Part shown: positions 5,703 through 53,484 of the stretch, in pieces | Numbering within the stretch: position 1 is the stretch's first letter | Layout: every line of letters begins with the position of its first letter | From: Prochlorococcus marinus XMU1408 | GTDB taxonomy: Bacteria; Cyanobacteriota; Cyanobacteriia; PCC-6307; Cyanobiaceae | Length of the DNA stretch: 64,000 bases | Direction of reading: 5' to 3' | Assembly (NCBI RefSeq): GCF_003208055.1 | Contig: NZ_QJUE01000001.1 | Location: 62,001 to 126,000 of the forward strand | Made by a program: the position numbers and the translations under genes | The notes under the pieces: model-generated | Database searches by the model: none | Told to the model about the DNA's origin: nothing | Seen by the model: only the letters and a program-made list of their open reading frames with translations

Positions 5703-6962
5703 GTGAATAAAGAACAAAGAAAGGAGAAAATAGATAAAGAAAAAATCTTCACAGTTCCATTTTCCTTAAAAGAAGTTAAAGAAAATATCACTATTTCTGC
5801 TAATAATCCTGACAAGCCTTCTAAAGAAAAAATAATTAATCAAGCATTTATGTTTCACGCACAAGGAAATATTTCAGAAGCAGCAAAATATTATAAAAAT
5901 TTCATCAATCAAGGATTCAAAGATCACAGAGTTTTTTCTAATTATGGAGTCATTTTGAAAAATCTTGGCAAATTGCAAGACGCTAAAATCGCATATCAGA
6001 AAGCAATTGAACTAAATCCTCATTTCGCAGAGGCACATTCCAATCTAAGCCTCATATTTAGAGATCTTGGCAAATTGCAAGACGCTGAAATCGCCATTCG
6101 CAAAGCAATTGAACTAAATCCTCATTTCGCAGAGGCACATTCCAATCTAAGCCTCATATTTAGAGATCTTGGCAAATTGCAAGACGCTGAAATCGCCATT
6201 CGTAAAGCAATTAAACTAAATCCTAATTGCGCATCCTCATACAAAGACCTAGGTATCTGTCAATATCTTATTGGAGATATTGACTCAGCATTCAATTCCA
6301 TATTAAAAGCAAATTCCATTGACCCTGAAGAGTTAGGTAACAAAATATTATTACGTATTTTTCATAAAGAAAAAGATACTAAAAATAGTGACCTACAAAC
6401 AAATCAAAAAAACTTGAGTCTTCCTGAAACAACTTTGAACTCAAATCCCCTAATTTTGCATATGCCAATAGAAGTAGAACTTATTAATAGCTTATATAAA
6501 ATAAAAGCTAGAGATCAAGAGAAATATCAGGCTCCAACTTATGGAGATGCCAAAGGTTCAGATTACAAATTATTTGAAATAAATGATTCAATTATAAAAA
6601 TTACAGAAGAAAAATTAATTAGTATCGCTAAAGATTCGGTTAAATCAGATATCTTCATAAGCGAGTCTTTCTTTACAATATTTAGATCAGGAGGTGGATT
6701 AAAAAGTCACGATCATTTGAACAAATTAGATAAGGTAAAAGGCTTAAATTTAGCAAATAAAAAGTATTCGTTAGTATATTATGTATCTGTAGGCGATCAA
6801 GATTGTGACGAACCAGGGATTTTAAAACTCAAAAATCCAAATCAAGAAATTCTTCCCAATAATGGATTAATAGTTATTTTCCCAGCAAGAAGAAAACACT
6901 CTGTATTTTATAAAGGCAATAAAGATAGAATCATTATTGGAGTAAATTTTTATAGACTCTAG
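5703..6962 (+). CDS. TPR protein with C-terminal 2OG-Fe(II) oxygenase-like domain
   Basis: 419 residues, GTG start preceded by CGAGGA. It has the shared header (FTVPFS... then IINQAFMFHAQGNISEAAKYY and FKDHRVFSNYG). TPR units span about 75-210. The C-terminal domain (about 250-419) has SESFFTIFRSGGGLKSHDH near 319-337, supplying an HxD-like metal pair, and RKHSVFY near 395 with a distal His and the nearby KDRIIIGVNF, as in the putative 2OG-Fe(II) oxygenase family fused to TPRs. Expected reaction: Fe/2-oxoglutarate-dependent hydroxylation of a protein or small molecule held by the TPRs. Substrate unknown. Confidence 0.75.
   Translation: MNKEQRKEKIDKEKIFTVPFSLKEVKENITISANNPDKPSKEKIINQAFMFHAQGNISEAAKYYKNFINQGFKDHRVFSNYGVILKNLGKLQDAKIAYQKAIELNPHFAEAHSNLSLIFRDLGKLQDAEIAIRKAIELNPHFAEAHSNLSLIFRDLGKLQDAEIAIRKAIKLNPNCASSYKDLGICQYLIGDIDSAFNSILKANSIDPEELGNKILLRIFHKEKDTKNSDLQTNQKNLSLPETTLNSNPLILHMPIEVELINSLYKIKARDQEKYQAPTYGDAKGSDYKLFEINDSIIKITEEKLISIAKDSVKSDIFISESFFTIFRSGGGLKSHDHLNKLDKVKGLNLANKKYSLVYYVSVGDQDCDEPGILKLKNPNQEILPNNGLIVIFPARRKHSVFYKGNKDRIIIGVNFYRL
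5961..6266 (+). repeat. Tandem 102-bp TPR-encoding repeat in the oxygenase gene
   Basis: Three units begin at 5961, 6063 and 6165, each at the codons for DLGKLQDA. Units two and three are almost identical at the DNA level, including silent positions. Confidence 0.9.
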
Positions 6963-7012
6963 TAAGACTAAAAGATTAGAGTAATCAGTAAGTTAATTTA
7001 AACAGAGGAATA

Positions 7013-8767
7013 ATGATCAAGAAACCTGGTCAAGAAAAGAAAAGAAATAAGAAAAAAAATGAAATAAAAATCTTCAACGTTCCATTTGATTCAGGAGAAA
7101 TCATAAAGAATAGTACTATTAATACGAATACTCCATCTAACAACTACAAAGAAAAAATAATTAATCAAGCTTTTAACTTTCATGCTCAAGGTAATATTTC
7201 AGAAGCAGAAAAATATTATAAAAAGATTATAAATAAAGGTTTAATAGATTATAGAGTATTTTCTAATTATGGAATCATATTAAAAAATCAGGGCAAATTA
7301 AAAGAGGCAGAGCTATTGACTCGCAAAGCAATTAAACTTAAAACTAATTACGCAGAAGCATATTCAAATTTAGGGAATATTTTGAGAGATCTTAGAAAAT
7401 CAAAAGAGGCAGAACTATCGACTCGTAAAGCAATTGAACTCAATCCTAATTTCGCGGATGCTCATCTAAATCTAGGCAATATATTAAGAGATCTTGGCAA
7501 ATTAAAAGAGGCAGAACTATCGACTCGTAAAGCAATTGAACTTAAGCATGATTTCGCAAAAGCACATTGCAATCTTGGAATCATTTTAAAAGATCTTGGA
7601 AAATTAAAAGAAGCAGAACTATCAACTCTTAAAGCAATTGAACTTAAAACTAATTACGCAGAAGCATATTCAAATCTAGGAAATATATTGAAAGATCTTG
7701 GTAAATTAAAAGAGGCAGAACTATCAACTCGTAAAGCAATTGAACTTAATGCTGATGATGCAAAAGCATACTATTTACTATCTTTACTTGAATATTCTAA
7801 TGAAAATAAAAGATGGCAGAATCAACTCTTTTCTAAAGATATCTTAAAAAATAAATTAGAAAAAGATCAAATTGATATTTACTTTGCAAGAGCAAATATT
7901 CTTCATAAGGAAAAAAATTATGAAGAAAGTTCTAAATACCTTGAATTAGCAAATAAGCTTAAATTAAATTTTAATCCATCTAACTCGGATAATTTTATCA
8001 ATAAATCTAAAAAATTGCTTATTGAATCTTATAAAAAAGAAATTACGAAAAAAGAATACAAAAGTTCTTCTGAGAGTATTTTTATTGTTGGTATGTTTAG
8101 AAGTGGTTCTACATTATTGGAATCAATCCTTAGTATGAGTAATAATGTATATGATCTAGGTGAAGTTAATATTCTAGAAGAATCATTCCTTCAGTGGAAT
8201 AAATCCAAACAAGAAACAAATCTTGCTAAATTATATGATGAAAAAGTAAATAATAAGACTAAATTGAATATCACAACTAATAAATGGTTATATAACTATC
8301 AATACGCAGGTATTATTGCCCGGCATATACCAAATGCAAAAATTATTCACTGCCATCGACATCCTCTAGATAATATTCTTTCAATTTATCGAGCACATTT
8401 TTCTAGTGGAAGTGAATTTTCTTCCTCCATAATTGATTGCACAAGAGTTTATTTAGATCAAGAGGAAATAATGAGTAAATATAAGAATAGATTTAGATCA
8501 AAAATATATGACTTAAATTATGACTCATTAGTCAGAAATCCTAATCAAGAAATTAAATCTTTAATCTCTTGGTTAGATTGGAAGTGGGACAAAACATATC
8601 TAACACCTCATCTAAATCCACGCTCAGTTTTAACAGCAAGCAATGTTCAAGTTCGTTCCCCAATCAATGCAAAATCAATTGGTGGATGGAAGAACTATAA
8701 AGATATGCTTAAACCTGCCATTGAAATCCTTACTCAAATAGATAGATATCAAGACTTGGTTGCATAA
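7013..8767 (+). CDS. TPR protein with C-terminal sulfotransferase domain
   Basis: 584 residues, ATG with AGAGGA upstream, 50 nt after the oxygenase gene, so probably the same transcript. Header (IFNVPFDSGE, IINQAFNFHAQGNISEAEKYY) and about six TPR units precede a domain from about 355 to 580. It has the PAPS-type 5'-phosphosulfate loop FRSGSTLLE (about 363-371) and the 3'-phosphate-binding block HRHPLDNILSIYR (about 447-459), both hallmarks of sulfotransferases. Expected role: transfer of sulfate from PAPS to a Tyr or glycan hydroxyl. No partner PAPS-synthesis gene is in the window. Confidence 0.85.
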   Translation: MIKKPGQEKKRNKKKNEIKIFNVPFDSGEIIKNSTINTNTPSNNYKEKIINQAFNFHAQGNISEAEKYYKKIINKGLIDYRVFSNYGIILKNQGKLKEAELLTRKAIKLKTNYAEAYSNLGNILRDLRKSKEAELSTRKAIELNPNFADAHLNLGNILRDLGKLKEAELSTRKAIELKHDFAKAHCNLGIILKDLGKLKEAELSTLKAIELKTNYAEAYSNLGNILKDLGKLKEAELSTRKAIELNADDAKAYYLLSLLEYSNENKRWQNQLFSKDILKNKLEKDQIDIYFARANILHKEKNYEESSKYLELANKLKLNFNPSNSDNFINKSKKLLIESYKKEITKKEYKSSSESIFIVGMFRSGSTLLESILSMSNNVYDLGEVNILEESFLQWNKSKQETNLAKLYDEKVNNKTKLNITTNKWLYNYQYAGIIARHIPNAKIIHCHRHPLDNILSIYRAHFSSGSEFSSSIIDCTRVYLDQEEIMSKYKNRFRSKIYDLNYDSLVRNPNQEIKSLISWLDWKWDKTYLTPHLNPRSVLTASNVQVRSPINAKSIGGWKNYKDMLKPAIEILTQIDRYQDLVA

Positions 8768-8817
8768 ATTTGCATTGTGTTAGTAACAAAAAGATCGTAT
8801 TGGAGTAGAAAAGAATT

Positions 8818-8891
8818 AACAGAACAACCCCTCACACAATAGTTCTGTTGCTAAAAGGCACTCGACTTAGCTTAAGTATGGTGCCTTTTTA
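8818..8891 (+). ncRNA. Yfr1-like small RNA, copy A (CCCCTCACAC loop)
   Basis: Hairpin 1 is ACAGAAC / GTTCTGT with loop AACCCCTCACACAATA. A terminator follows: AAGGCAC...GTGCCTT then TTTT. The loop holds the Yfr1-type motif (canonical ACUCCUCACAC) with one base changed. A TTGGAGTAGAAAAG box precedes it, as in copy B. Yfr1 is a cyanobacterial trans-acting sRNA; here the motif is in a loop rather than between two stems, so this is a relative or mimic, not the standard single-copy Yfr1. Confidence 0.6.
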
Positions 8892-8977
8892 AAGTTTAAT
8901 TTTATAGAATTGACACATGTGACAGTTGGAAAACTCAAATACCCATCATTCCCATAGCAATAAGTTTAATTAAATTT

Positions 8978-9070
8978 CGTATGTGAGGAGTTGAGATCCT
9001 CCGCAGTGGAAACAAGGAAACACTTGCGACTGATCTTCAAAAAGACCTGTTTTAGACAGGTCTTTTTTTT
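8978..9070 (+). ncRNA. Yfr2-type small RNA, copy A
   Basis: It starts ATGTGAGGAGTTGAGATCCT, where GAGGA/TCCTC forms a stem, then GCAGTGGAAACAAGGAAACA and CTTGC, the second hairpin with the GGAAACAAGGAAACA loop I recall as the hallmark of the Yfr2 family. A perfect terminator follows (AGACCTG TTTTAGA CAGGTCT then T8). Yfr2 RNAs are abundant in picocyanobacteria and have been proposed to pair with Yfr1. It lies 86 nt downstream of the Yfr1-like RNA. Confidence 0.75.
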
Positions 9071-9532
9071 GCTTCATTAAATACTTAGTACCAAAAATAC
9101 CTAAAGAAGATATTAATAAATTCTCAGGTACTAAATCATAGGCATTAGAACGCTAGTGTAAAGAAAATAAATTCCTTGCGATTCCTCCGTAGAAACACTC
9201 AAAACGTAAAAAGAAAAATATATATTTAATTTATAGCTACTTTTAGTAGTTAATTCTATTCACAATCTATAGCTCCTCAAACAAAAAATTATTTATGACA
9301 AGGTTCTCAGGGGATGATTTATCGAAACAAACGTGTCACAAACTGAAAAAGCACCTCAATAAAAAAGATAAGTTCTATTGTACGAGTTTATTTTATTAAT
9401 AATCCTAGAAAGTTCAGTGAAAATATTAGTTAATCTCGCTCTATCAGTGATAAATAATTTCAGAAAGAAATAATAAGAATCAAAAATAGTAGTAAAATAA
9501 AATGAACCAAAAGAAAGAAAACATAAGCGAAG
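9071..9532. other. Intergenic region before the TPR-methyltransferase gene
   Basis: AT-rich; contains one TTTTAGTAGT box at 9241. No open frame or clear RNA fold is seen. Confidence 0.5.
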
Positions 9533-11719
9533 ATGGATAGTTCTAGTCAAGAAGGAGAAGTAAAGAAGAAAATTAATGAGATAAAAACATTTCCAGTTCC
9601 ATTAACTATAGGAGAAATTAAAGAAAATATTATTATTAATACTAATAAACCTAATCAACTTTCTAAAGAAGAAATAATTAATCAAGCATATAAGTTTCAT
9701 TCAATAGGAAACATTTCAAAAGCAAGCAAATATTATCAATATTTTATCAATCAAGGATTCAAAGATCATAGGGTTTTTTCTAATTATGGATCCTTATTAG
9801 AATCCCTTGGTAAATTACAAGAAGCAAAATTATATACTAGTAAAGCCATTGAATTGAATCCTAATTTCGCAAAAGCGCATTACAATTTAGGAACTATATT
9901 GACTGATCTTGGCAAATTACAAGAAGCAGCATTGTCATTCCGTAAAGCAATTAAACTCAATCCTGGTTTCGCGAAGGCTCATTCCAATCTGGGAAACATA
10001 TTGAACGATCTTGGCAAATTACAAGAAGCAGCATTATCATTCCGCAAAGCAATTAAACTCAATCCTGATTTTGCGAAGGCTCATTCCAATCTGGGAAAAA
10101 TATTGAATGATCTTGGAGATCAAGAAGGAGCATTTGATTCTTATCTGAAAGCAATTGATATCAATCCAAAAAATTCCAATATTTACTCCTCAATTACTAG
10201 ATTTTTACAAGAGTCAGATCCAGCACATTTAAATAAATCTAAATTGAAAAAAATATTAAATATTCTACTAGAAAAAAACAATGTGTCCCATCAAGAATTA
10301 TTAAGACCATTTAATTTTTTATATAGCAATCAAATAATAAATAATATAAAAAAAACAGATCAAGACTTTTCCAAATTAGAATTACTTATTAAAGATAAAA
10401 TTATAATTAATGCACTTAAAAAGATTATATTTTGTGATCTTAAGTTGGAATCAATACTTACCGAAGTAAGAAAAAATATATGCTATCGTATTGCAAAAAA
10501 TACCGAAAATATAAATTACTCGGAATTACAATTTATTATTGCATTAGGAGAGCAATGCTTTTTTAATGAATATATTTATTCAATCACAGAAAAAGAAAAA
10601 ATATGTATTAATATTATCATAAAAAAATGTAGAGATGGGGAATTAAATGAAAGAACAATTGCCATTTTATCTTGTTATTTTCCACTATATAAACTTATTG
10701 AACATATAGAGTCTTTAAAATCATTTAATTCTGCAGATATAAATTTTCAACAATTATTGAGATTTCAAATTTCAGAACCCCTAAAAGAAATTCAAATATC
10801 TAAAAATATCAAAAAATTAGGTTCTATCAATGATAGTATCTCTCAAAAAGTAAAAACACAATATGAAAAAAATCCATATCCTAGATGGCGATTTGGAAAT
10901 CCTTCAACCAAAAAAAAGGTTTCTATTATACAAGCAATAAATAATGAAATCAAACCTAATTCTATTAGTTATAATATAAGAGATAGTAAACTAAAAGTTC
11001 TAATTGCGGGGTGTGGAACAGGTCAGCAGATTTTAAATACACAAATTTATAAGAATGCTCATTTTAGTTGTATAGACTTAAGTTTATCTAGTTTATCTTA
11101 TGCTCAAAGGAAGATAAATGAATTGGGTATTAAGAATGTTAAACTAATTGAAATGGATATCTTAGAAGTTGGTTTATTAGAAGAGCAATTTGATATTATT
11201 GAATGTGGAGGTGTTCTACATCACATGGAAAATCCTTCAAAAGGATTGAAAGCATTATTAGGTGTTTTAAAAAAGACTGGATTCCTTAAGTTAGGTTTGT
11301 ATAGTGAATTAGCAAGACAAAATATAATCCAGGCAAGAAATTATATTGCTAGCAAAAAAATTCAAGCAAATGAGGATAGTATTCGTGATTTTAGAGAAAG
11401 AATTATTTCAGGGAAATTGAAAAATTTAAACTCATTAACAACATGTAAAGACTTTTATTCATTATCGGAATTCCGTGATCTTTGCTTCCACAGCAAAGAA
11501 CATAGATTCACAATTAATCAGCTACATGAAACTCTCAAATCTAATAAATTAAAATTTCTTGGATTCTTACTTCCAAAGCCAGTAAAATCTTCCTACAAGC
11601 AATATTTCCCAGAAGATAAGAAGCAAATAAACTTACAAAACTGGACAAAGTTTGAAGAAAAAAATCCTAACACTTTCAAAGCAATGTATCAATTCTGGAC
11701 TTGTAAAACAGAGATTTGA
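9533..11719 (+). CDS. TPR protein with C-terminal SAM-dependent methyltransferase domain
   Basis: 728 residues. Header (TFPVPLTIGEIKEN, IINQAYKFHSIGNISKASKYY, FKDHRVFSNYG), TPR units about 80-225, and an unassigned helical middle (225-435). Then KVKTQYEKNPYPRWRFG precedes a Rossmann methyltransferase with motif I VLIAGCGTGQQIL (about 488-500), an acidic end of strand 2 (FSCIDLS) and IECGGVLHHMENPSKGL (about 555-571). The NPYPRW lead-in is typical of the class I methyltransferases found fused to TPRs. Substrate unknown; a protein or glycan acceptor is likely by analogy with its sister genes. Confidence 0.85.
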   Translation: MDSSSQEGEVKKKINEIKTFPVPLTIGEIKENIIINTNKPNQLSKEEIINQAYKFHSIGNISKASKYYQYFINQGFKDHRVFSNYGSLLESLGKLQEAKLYTSKAIELNPNFAKAHYNLGTILTDLGKLQEAALSFRKAIKLNPGFAKAHSNLGNILNDLGKLQEAALSFRKAIKLNPDFAKAHSNLGKILNDLGDQEGAFDSYLKAIDINPKNSNIYSSITRFLQESDPAHLNKSKLKKILNILLEKNNVSHQELLRPFNFLYSNQIINNIKKTDQDFSKLELLIKDKIIINALKKIIFCDLKLESILTEVRKNICYRIAKNTENINYSELQFIIALGEQCFFNEYIYSITEKEKICINIIIKKCRDGELNERTIAILSCYFPLYKLIEHIESLKSFNSADINFQQLLRFQISEPLKEIQISKNIKKLGSINDSISQKVKTQYEKNPYPRWRFGNPSTKKKVSIIQAINNEIKPNSISYNIRDSKLKVLIAGCGTGQQILNTQIYKNAHFSCIDLSLSSLSYAQRKINELGIKNVKLIEMDILEVGLLEEQFDIIECGGVLHHMENPSKGLKALLGVLKKTGFLKLGLYSELARQNIIQARNYIASKKIQANEDSIRDFRERIISGKLKNLNSLTTCKDFYSLSEFRDLCFHSKEHRFTINQLHETLKSNKLKFLGFLLPKPVKSSYKQYFPEDKKQINLQNWTKFEEKNPNTFKAMYQFWTCKTEI

Positions 11720-12070
11720 CTACTTCCAGAACATAAAAATATTTGATTTTGTAGAGAAAACTATCCGTCTAGATTGTCTCCTATAGAGACACTATTAATG
11801 TCAAAAATAAACCAATGACACTTACTTATTTAAAGTATGACTACTTTCTATAGACGTTTATTCCTACTGAATACTTCTAAACCCAAATATTTCTTATAAT
11901 ACTATCTTTCACTCGACAAATTTAGCATTAGCGAAGATATACAAAATATTTTGATTTTTATACACCTAGCACTTTGTATTAGTTGCTTTTATAAAGCTAG
12001 TCGTAAATTATGCAAATTTCTAATTAAAAAATTTTTCTGTTGTTGAACTTTTTAGAAATTGATTACACAA
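11720..12070. other. Intergenic region between TPR gene and cassette region
   Basis: AT-rich, no convincing open frame. A short hairpin-forming stretch (TTGTCTCCTATAGAGACACT) near 11776 could end the preceding transcript but lacks a T-run. Confidence 0.45.
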
Positions 12071-12075
12071 GAAAA

Positions 12076-12155
12076 AACAGAACGCGTCCTCAACAAAATC
12101 ATTTCTGCAATAGAGAAAGACCCTTAGTAGCACTGTTCGGCAAGAGGTTTTTCTT
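12076..12155 (+). ncRNA. Degenerate Yfr1-like hairpin, copy D
   Basis: CAGAA / TTCTG stem around loop CGCGTCCTCAACAAAATCA, followed by AGACCC...GAGGTTTTTC, a weak terminator. It aligns with copy C (13126) better than with A and B: both read TCCT-AC-AAAAT in the loop and AGAGA after the stem. The Yfr1 motif is broken (TCCTCAAC), so this is either a diverged RNA with other targets or a relic. Confidence 0.4.
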
Positions 12156-12177
12156 TTGAGGAGTAATCAGTGTTAAT

Positions 12178-12256
12178 GCTTTAGGGTTTTTAGCCTATAG
12201 ATATTTTTAATTAGAAGGAATAGATATAAATCAAAGCACTATTAGGAGGTCAAGCC
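12178..12256 (+). promoter_or_regulatory. Cassette leader and RBS, copy 2
   Basis: CTTTAGGGTTTTTAGCCTAT (upstream box and -10-like CTATAGAT), GGAATAGATATAAATCAAAG, then TTAGGAGGTCAAGCC directly before the ATG. It is nearly identical to 14448-14525. The conserved spacing suggests a promoter plus leader copied together with the gene; AGGAGG is an exceptionally strong Shine-Dalgarno for this window. Confidence 0.65.
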
Positions 12257-12442
12257 ATGTCATGCGGTAATCCTTTTAAACATGCAATCGAAGACGTAAA
12301 AAAAACATTCTCGAAATCGTGTGGAGTTCCTATCCAAGGGAACGATTGGTGTGATCTTGTTTTTAATTATGAAACTGATTTTGATGAGGTTGATTACGAG
12401 AATGAATGTTTACAGTTTGGCAACTGCTCATTTGACTACTAA
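12257..12442 (+). CDS. Cassette peptide, copy 2
   Basis: 61 residues starting MSCGNPFKHAIEDVKKTFSK. Conserved core GVPIQGNDWCDL, then an acidic Asp/Glu-rich tail and FGNCSFDY. Five Cys in total. It is about 92 percent identical to the 14.5-kb copy. The protein is soluble and small, with no known family; the Cys and DW residues could bind metal or form disulfides, which is speculation. AGGAGG lies 8 nt upstream. It is followed by a frameshifted copy of the membrane-peptide gene. Confidence 0.8.
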   Translation: MSCGNPFKHAIEDVKKTFSKSCGVPIQGNDWCDLVFNYETDFDEVDYENECLQFGNCSFDY

Positions 12443-12471
12443 AAAATATTAAATTCACAAGAGGTCTAATC

Positions 12472-12604
12472 ATGCAAGCAACCCGTAGTTAGATCTAATG
12501 GATCTAATACTCTCTCATCAATCTTTCTTTGGTTTTCTGTCCTTTTAATCTCACTTGGAACACTCCCTCATATAGTGCCTTATTACTTTCAGTTGAAATA
12601 TTGA
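12472..12604 (+). pseudogene. Frameshifted copy of the 44-residue cassette membrane peptide
   Basis: The DNA aligns along its whole length with the intact gene at 14741, but two bases are missing after the sixth codon. The frame therefore reads MQATRS then TAG, while the rest (the SSIFLWFSVLL-type segment) sits in another frame. The AGAGG site upstream remains. Confidence 0.8.
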
Positions 12605-12698
12605 GGTAAAAAGTTTGTTGTTCTTCCTACTTTTGCAATTGCTCATCATTTTGTCTTTTTAATAGTGACAAAAGATTCATACAGGAGTAGAAAAGGAA

Positions 12699-12772
12699 TA
12701 ACAGAACAACTCCTCACACAATCGTTCTGTTGCAAAAAAGCACTCCACTTCACGTAAGTAGGGTGCTTTTTT
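12699..12772 (+). ncRNA. Yfr1-like small RNA, copy B (exact CTCCTCACAC motif)
   Basis: Hairpin ACAGAAC / GTTCTGT has loop AACTCCTCACACAATC, containing the exact Yfr1 core ACTCCTCACAC. The terminator AGCACTC...GGGTGCT plus TTTTTT follows at once, giving an RNA of roughly 75 nt. The loop can pair perfectly over 12 nt (TGTGAGGAGTTG) with the Yfr2-type RNA encoded about 120 nt downstream. ACAGGAGTAGAAAAG stands upstream as in copy A. Confidence 0.65.
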
Positions 12773-12837
12773 AGTGCCTGTGCCAATTCTTAAACCCACC
12801 TTTAAAGGGTTTAATCTAGATTCCATTCAATTATGTT

Positions 12838-12937
12838 TTGTTTGTGAGGAGTTGAGATCCTCCGCAGTGGAAACAAGGAAACACTTGCGACTGATCTCAC
12901 AAAGAAACCGTCCTAACAGAACTGGGCGGTTTTTTTC
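12838..12937 (+). ncRNA. Yfr2-type small RNA, copy B
   Basis: Identical to copy A from GTGAGGAGTTGAGATCC to ACTTGCGACTGATC, including the GGAAACAAGGAAACA loop. The terminator differs: AACCGTCC...GGGCGGTT then T-run. Conservation of the RNA body with a divergent terminator points to selection on the body. It lies in tandem with Yfr1-like copy B, in the same strand order as pair A. Confidence 0.75.
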
Positions 12938-12958
12938 TGCCTTTTCTAGAGTGGTCTG

Positions 12959-13057
12959 ATGATATTTCCACCTCCACAAGTTGTTTTCGGGTTGCTGCTT
13001 TTATGTACAGCAGTTGTTTTTGATTTTCAATATCAGATACAACCCATTCAGAAATAG
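12959..13057 (+). CDS. Possible 32-residue membrane peptide
   Basis: MIFPPPQVVFG followed by a hydrophobic run (LLLLCTAVVF) and a short polar tail. No good RBS and no paralogue in the window; it may be chance. Confidence 0.25.
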   Translation: MIFPPPQVVFGLLLLCTAVVFDFQYQIQPIQK

Positions 13058-13125
13058 CAAAGACGGTGTTTGATTAGGAATAATTTCTGATGCTTCTACT
13101 TGCAGTTTTGATTAGAAAAGGAAAA

Positions 13126-13206
13126 GCAGAACAACTCCTTACCAAAATTAGTTCTGTAAACAGAGAGAGGGACTCAAGGTCGCTGAAGCAGCAGGGTCCC
13201 TTTCTT
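13126..13206 (+). ncRNA. Diverged Yfr1-like hairpin with terminator, copy C
   Basis: GCAGAAC / GTTCTGT stem with loop AACTCCTTACCAAAATTA, then GGGACTC...GGGTCCC and TTTCTT. The stem matches copies A and B, but the loop has CTCCTTACC in place of CTCCTCACAC, so any target set would differ. Confidence 0.5.
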
Positions 13207-13281
13207 AATGCTAAAAATAAGTAACTTGACTTACTAGACAAATATAGTACGTTTGTATTAGTTTAATCCCCATCACAAACG

Positions 13282-14311: not shown

Positions 14312-14425
14312 TTGACTCTAAGGAGGCATCTCACACCTCCTGATGTGAACAGAGTCACCTTTCGTGCGGTCTCTGCAATGGTCGGAACAACCCAAACCCC
14401 CTGATTTTTTCAGGGGTTTTTCTTT
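14312..14425 (+). ncRNA. Candidate small RNA with GGAGG/CCTCC hairpin and terminator
   Basis: CATTGACTCTAAGGAGGCAT continues to a GGAGG CATCTCACA CCTCC hairpin, then ACAGAGTCACC and GTGCGGTCTCTGC, and ends at CCCCTGATTTTTTCAGGGG TTTTT, a clean terminator. No open frame. A degenerate relative (GACTCTAAGTAGGAATC) sits in the 4-kb leader at about 4050. Loop CATCTCACA partly resembles the Yfr1 core. Probably an RNA gene of the cassette family. Confidence 0.5.
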
Positions 14426-14447
14426 ATGAGGACAATGAGATTTAATA

Positions 14448-14525
14448 CTTTAGGGTTTTTATCCTATAGATTTTTTGAATTAGGAGGAGTAGATATAAAT
14501 CAAGGCACTATTAGGAGGTCAAACC
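14448..14525 (+). promoter_or_regulatory. Cassette leader and RBS, copy 3 (best preserved)
   Basis: CTTTAGGGTTTTTATCCTAT with CTATAGAT as likely -10, then GGAGGAGTAGATATAAATC and TTAGGAGGTCAAACC before the ATG. Essentially the same as 12178-12256. Confidence 0.65.
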
Positions 14526-14711
14526 ATGTCATGCGGTAATCCTTTTAAACATGCAATCGAAGACGTAAAGGAAACATTCTCGAAATCTTGTGGGGTTCCT
14601 ATCCAAGGAAACGATTGGTGCGATCTGGTTTCCAATTATGAAACTGATTTTGATGAAGTCGATTACGAGAATGAATGTTTGCAGTTTGGTAACTGCTCAA
14701 TGGACTACTAA
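14526..14711 (+). CDS. Cassette peptide, copy 3
   Basis: 61 residues, MSCGNPFKHAIEDVKETFSK...GVPIQGNDWCDLVS, ending FGNCSMDY. It differs from copy 2 by a few conservative or silent changes, which suggests purifying selection. It is followed 29 nt later by an intact membrane-peptide gene; this is the most complete cassette in the window. Confidence 0.85.
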   Translation: MSCGNPFKHAIEDVKETFSKSCGVPIQGNDWCDLVSNYETDFDEVDYENECLQFGNCSMDY

Positions 14712-14740
14712 AAAACATTGAACTAACAGGAGGTTTCACT

Positions 14741-14875
14741 ATGCAAGTAACCCGTAGTTTCCGATCCAATGGGTCGAATACTCTTTCATCAATCTTTCTT
14801 TGGTTTTCAGTCCTATTAATTTCCTTTGGAATGCTTCCACACTTAATTCCTTATTATTTTCAATTGAAATATTGA
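14741..14875 (+). CDS. 44-residue cassette membrane peptide
   Basis: MQVTRSFRSNGSNTLSS then a hydrophobic helix (IFLWFSVLLISFGMLPHL) and a short IPYYFQLKY tail. CAGGAGG is 8 nt upstream. Single-pass, short, with a basic N-terminus, so probably N-in. The two-base deletion in the 12.5-kb copy and total loss in the 4-kb copy make this the only functional one here. Toxin-like peptides have this shape, but nothing else in the sequence proves such a role. Confidence 0.7.
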   Translation: MQVTRSFRSNGSNTLSSIFLWFSVLLISFGMLPHLIPYYFQLKY

Positions 14876-14885
14876 GGTAAAAAGA

Positions 14886-53126: not shown

Positions 53127-53390
53127 AATTAAAAAGGAGCCCTTCCAGGCTCCATGGATCAATTGGGTAATAAGGCTGATCTGACCCCATCTCCGTTAAA
53201 AGATCAAGCAGCAACAGGGGCTGTTTGACGGGAGAAACTAACGATGTTGTTAGCAGTTATGGTTTTGCTCTGACCGAGCAGGCTTCAGTCACTCGCCTGA
53301 TACCCCGTCGAAGCCATTGCAGCCCCATTTTATGGAGCTGAGCGGAATCGAACCGCTGTCCGAGATACTGGTGTGAATCACCTAGTCCAT
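53127..53390 (-). ncRNA. ssrA: Two-piece (circularly permuted) tmRNA gene
   Basis: On the minus strand the acceptor piece comes first: ...GGACAGCGGTTCGATTCCGC TCAGCTCCA ending at 53333. Only six bases (TAAAAT) separate it from the coding-piece 5' end GGGGCTGCAATGGCTTCGAC at 53326. The tag frame spans 53254-53204 and reads ANNIVSFSRQTAPVAA then TGA. Pseudoknot-rich sequence follows, and the transcript ends with GGAGCCTGGAAGGGCTCCTT plus TTT at about 53131. Acceptor stem pairing GGGGCTG / CAGCTCC confirms the permutation. It rescues stalled ribosomes together with SmpB. Confidence 0.95.
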
Positions 53391-53484
53391 TAGAAAATAG
53401 ACATATATATTCTGACAGATCTTTGGGAATTAATCGATTAAGGTTTAATCATGCTTTCGATTGATTTTTAATAACTTTAAAATA

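Follow-up and report, generated by a model that had tools for sequence, protein, structure and literature searches.

Does the small hairpin RNA that presents a Yfr1 motif beside a Yfr2 gene in Prochlorococcus marinus XMU1408 (pair B) form a regulatory unit of its own, or is it a copy of an arrangement already on record? The original prediction, made on the 64,000-nt stretch of DNA analysed here (the window), took it to be a distinct unit. That view was not upheld. The order, in which a Yfr2 gene follows a Yfr10-type sRNA gene, matches the Yfr10-Yfr2 arrangement published for MED4 (PMC2518516, PMC6778093), and pair B is therefore not a new arrangement. It is very probably a lineage-specific copy of the MED4 arrangement, with Yfr2 acting as a sponge. 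The features discussed are listed in Table 1.

Table 1. Small RNA genes and associated features in the window (positions within the window).
Feature	Position	Strand	Evidence
Pair A Yfr10-like hairpin, loop variant ACCCCTCACAC	8809..8889	+	R1 62.2 bits; fold z -5.0
Pair A Yfr2 (Cyano-1) with terminator	8977..9072	+	RF01701 64.8 bits at 8977-9041
Probable promoter of pair B hairpin RNA: GTGACA, 17-nt spacer, TAGAAA	12665..12693	+	genus conservation
Pair B Yfr10-like sRNA: hairpin (9-bp stem, ACUCCUCACAC loop) and intrinsic terminator	12699..12772	+	folding; Rfam Yfr10; genus model R1
Exact ACTCCTCACAC motif in pair B loop	12709..12719	+	exact sequence match; unpaired probability 0.99
Pair B Yfr2 (Cyano-1) with terminator; arm UGUGAGGAGUUG at 12843-12854	12838..12937	+	RF01701; terminator by folding
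Conserved 37-aa hydrophobic small ORF; window copy 32 aa with shifted C-terminus	12959..13057	+	homologue alignment
Third hairpin (C), Yfr10-like, loop ACUCCUUACC, own terminator	13116..13210 (hairpin 13116-13165)	+	R1; folding

Folding of the pair B RNA (12699-12772) gave a 9-bp stem with a 16-nt loop holding the motif, then a long terminator stem and a U run (-24.3 kcal/mol, z = -5.8), for a predicted length of about 74 nt. The loop presentation of the exact motif that had been proposed for this copy was confirmed, ACUCCUCACAC lying wholly unpaired within the loop (predicted unpaired probability 0.99). Yfr10 (RF02362) was the best Rfam family at this site, matched over model positions 1-78 of 78 with 32.5 bits against a cut-off of 43 bits; no Rfam match to Yfr1 (RF01116) was found there. 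With R1, a covariance model built from the genus hairpins, the score was 72.3 bits, which is not independent because the sequence itself was used in building R1, as was that of the hairpin at 13116. As in the Yfr10-type arrangement, the hairpin and the adjoining Yfr2 family gene share a strand. Upstream of it, GTGACA and the region around TAgAAA were conserved in 51 genus copies. These elements make up a probable promoter (12665-12693), from which the hairpin would be transcribed; a strict sigma-70 scan did not call it.

The downstream gene matched Cyano-1 (RF01701) with 65.5 bits at 12838-12902, above the gathering cut-off of 41. Its arm, TGTGAGGAGTTG at 12843-12854, is the exact reverse complement of 12707-12718 (CAACTCCTCACA) and sits about 124 nt from the loop motif, with a predicted duplex energy of -18 kcal/mol. 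The perfect 12-nt complementarity to a Yfr2-type RNA encoded about 120 nt downstream, as first noted, was thereby reproduced, but only 11 of the 12 bases lie in the free loop, since C12707 sits in the closing stem pair. The Yfr2 arm was predicted to be only 56% unpaired. Nested co-folding of hairpin B with Yfr2, which cannot represent a kissing complex between loop and arm and therefore understates the hairpin copies, was not strongly favoured over shuffles. A second Yfr10 match (12852-12945, 28.2 bits) falls on Yfr2 itself and was taken as chance. A second contact through AACAGAAC, which lies in the loop of the Yfr2 terminator, was also rejected, because just 28 of 111 copies have that sequence.

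A search of the full assembly gave three sites with the exact motif: pair B, C1:57433 and C4:85797. The last of these is the canonical Yfr1, found once in the genome (G000:C4, about 85.8 kb; RF01116, 64.5 bits) between ORFs read as guaB (IMP dehydrogenase) and trxA (thioredoxin). Its motif lies between a stem on the 5′ side and the stem of the terminator, which agrees with the earlier expectation of a single Yfr1 elsewhere with the motif between stems. The site at C1:57433 belongs to an extra hairpin 4.6 kb before the window. Genome-wide, R1 detected four Yfr10-like hairpins, at C1:57415, in pairs A and B, and at 13116-13165; another in the window, at 12067-12116, reached only 15.4 bits (E 0.17) and is not claimed. 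The pair A hairpin, whose sequence is absent from R1, has a mutated loop (ACCCCTCACAC) that mismatches its own Yfr2 arm. A third Yfr2 (C2:111984) had no Yfr10-like hairpin upstream within the stretch examined.

The hairpin copies of pairs A and B lie in repeats (8781-8891/12663-12773) within duplicated, island-like sequence. Pair A sits in an island-like context, between the second and third of three genes (5703-11719) that resemble TPR-repeat proteins fused to other domains, the domains having been read by eye. A palindrome, TGACACATGTGACA, occurs at 8911-8924 between hairpin A and Yfr2 A, and similar palindromes (at most 2 mismatches) were found upstream of 52 of 111 Yfr2 copies; it is possibly a GntR-type operator. 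It was looked for at pair B and not found. A separate block, 84-89% identical between 12143-12613 and 14412-14884, holds a gene for a 61-aa cysteine-containing peptide (MSCGNPFKHAIEDVKK...) that matched no known family in Pfam, NCBIfam or PHROG. The window also contains a cyanobacterial permuted (two-piece) tmRNA gene at 53137-53418 on the minus strand.

We surveyed 36 genomes of the same genus, taking the stretches around about 110 Yfr2 copies; pair A (8809-9072) is outside this tally. The same two-RNA order was recovered widely, as the original prediction had proposed to check: a Yfr10-like hairpin preceded 79 of the 110 copies within 450 nt, and the pair B hairpin is therefore more than a chance structure. 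Among the 80 hairpins that a Yfr2 follows, 68 carried the canonical loop without any change. Standard pairs filled 90% of stem cells, compared with 33-44% in slid controls, and three stem pairs had changes on both sides. Among 14 further genera of the family, Yfr2 was present in 13, and in 6 of these the motif lay directly upstream on the same strand, enclosed by stems unrelated in sequence (e.g. CGACA/TGTCG). In one of the genomes (G070) a Yfr10 match above the cut-off immediately preceded each of the two Yfr2 copies, whose arm, GTGTGTAGGAG, has the form published for MED4. When named genomes were scanned for an exact 20-mer, almost all the records returned were from Prochlorococcus. To judge from genome size and isolate names, the clade is presumably a low-light one. 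No exact match to the hairpin was found in viral contigs. Two viral core matches were rejected as phage-borne copies and put down to chance because they were not Cyano-1 by Rfam.

This conservation bears on whether pair B could be a degenerate or non-transcribed remnant of the island duplication. Both copies do lie in duplicated, island-like sequence, and the pair A loop has mutated; the prevalence of the canonical loop upstream of Yfr2, the stem kept by compensation and the conserved upstream sequence nevertheless make a remnant highly unlikely. A local role, in which the loop would regulate the peptide genes nearby by acting on their Shine-Dalgarno sites, also seems unlikely, though less so. 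The match to neighbouring sites that had been suggested was found in part: the leader of ORF 13338 (ATGAGGAGGAC) gave the best loop duplex of the window (-12.0 kcal/mol) in a ranking confined to the 51 leaders of this one window, but the 61-aa peptide genes ranked only 10-11 of 51 (-7.4). Such leader matches are weak evidence, since CUCCUC is anti-Shine-Dalgarno-like and matches any strong Shine-Dalgarno site, and the Yfr2 duplexes were much stronger than any leader duplex.

The close linkage seen for 79 of 110 copies might instead point to a private cis pair, the hairpin being controlled only by its adjacent Yfr2 in the manner of a type I antitoxin pair. Against this, no hairpin precedes 31 of the 110 Yfr2 copies, and the pair A loop mismatches its own arm. 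The original prediction had also looked to co-variation of loop and arm across homologues, and none was seen: cognate duplexes averaged -17.61 kcal/mol and permuted ones -17.57 +/- 0.05 kcal/mol (p 0.21, n=79), in a test of low power because loop and arm are both nearly invariant, and arm changes were mostly not compensated in the loop. Nested co-folding moreover predicted that canonical Yfr1 binds these Yfr2 copies too, and at larger energies. We give a private pair almost no credence. The lack of co-variation, together with a canonical Yfr1 that carries the same site, argues for a pooled network of sRNAs and sponges.

In this pooled network, the function that we infer for the pair B copy would run as follows. 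The hairpin RNA of about 74 nt would offer its CUCCUCAC loop to mRNAs with GUGAGGAG-like sites, which may lie in ribosome-binding regions and in coding sequence. The complementary arm of Yfr2 would bind Yfr10 and Yfr1, and Yfr2 would act as a sponge by virtue of this binding. Action would be in trans, each RNA reaching all the copies in the pool. Co-expression could be favoured by the tandem order, and read-through could yield a joint precursor.

Downstream of the pair B Yfr2 lie two further elements. Hairpin C scored 55.2 bits with R1, a model that includes its own sequence, and its fold had z -3.8. Across the genus, 28 of 109 Yfr2 copies also had a downstream hairpin, and the hairpin C-type loop was ACUCCUUACC in 17 of the 22 copies tallied. 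The C-to-U change in this loop still allows a U-G pair with Yfr2 (-14.4 kcal/mol). The variant downstream loop went with an upstream hairpin (18/20 vs 1/8); two locus types, with offsets of about 280 and 390 nt, stand behind this association, and we make no causal claim from it because it is confounded by orthology. Between Yfr2 and hairpin C sits the 37-aa ORF (consensus MIFPPPQVVFGLLLLSTAVVLIFDIRYNPFGNSEDDI), which is apparently unannotated and had no family match in Pfam, NCBIfam or PHROG. Its substitutions at codon positions 1, 2 and 3 numbered 81, 53 and 186 among 31 homologues of at least 30 aa, a pattern that indicates a coding ORF. After AVV the window copy (12959-13057) no longer follows the consensus, apparently because of a frameshift. 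The ORF lies just upstream of the third hairpin in many of the genus genomes, and a Yfr2 beside it was sometimes not found. Neither hairpin C nor the ORF was found in the Yfr literature examined, which took in few of the subscription papers. We tentatively suggest, at somewhat less than even confidence, that in this genus some Yfr2 genes belong to a larger cassette of a Yfr10-like hairpin, Yfr2, the 37-aa hydrophobic protein and a second Yfr10-like RNA with its loop fixed as ACUCCUUACC. The second RNA may titrate Yfr2 and have its own targets, since U-G wobble pairing is kept but different mRNAs would be expected, and it would be linked with a small membrane protein that is itself new. The third hairpin and the small ORF are testable additions to the Yfr network.

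Pair B itself opens no new class. What the survey adds is an extension of the tandem Yfr10-Yfr2 order from high-light Prochlorococcus, for which the literature states it, to one further genus and several others besides, in large copy numbers, and the many natural variants are material for tests of the evolution of a sponge RNA and of its targets. The MED4 genes for Yfr10, Yfr12 and Yfr18 are immediate neighbours of those for Yfr2, Yfr4 and Yfr5; in that strain transcription has been demonstrated, including a 270-nt Yfr10-Yfr2 precursor, and the motif is exposed as a single-stranded element for which pairing with Yfr2 was proposed (PMC2518516). Later work placed the Yfr10 motif in a loop atop a stem, reported the order Yfr10 then Yfr2 for high-light strains, and showed experimentally that Yfr2 pulls down Yfr1 and Yfr10, that Yfr2 reverses Yfr1 repression in E. 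coli, and that Yfr1 or Yfr10 protects Yfr2 from RNase E (PMC6778093).

Set against canonical Yfr1 (RF01116), pair B shares the 11-nt motif but holds it in a hairpin loop, whereas the Yfr1 motif is single-stranded beyond a stem; it is not next to guaB-trxA, and it does not qualify as a Yfr1. Its Yfr2 is a regular Cyano-1 member with the GUGGAAACAAGGAAACAC core and GUGAGGAG arm conserved, differing from MED4 in the arm (UGUGAGGAGUUG vs GUGUGUAGGAG) and otherwise in nothing notable. The hairpin resembles the Yfr10 family (MED4 Yfr10, Yfr12 and Yfr18) in its loop motif followed by a terminator, its length of about 75-78 nt, its place beside Yfr2 and its Rfam match over the whole model. Unlike them, it has another stem sequence and scores below the Rfam cut-off, the XMU1408 genome has four such hairpins, one of them downstream of Yfr2, and the pair B hairpin would pair with Yfr2 without the bulge that is needed in MED4.
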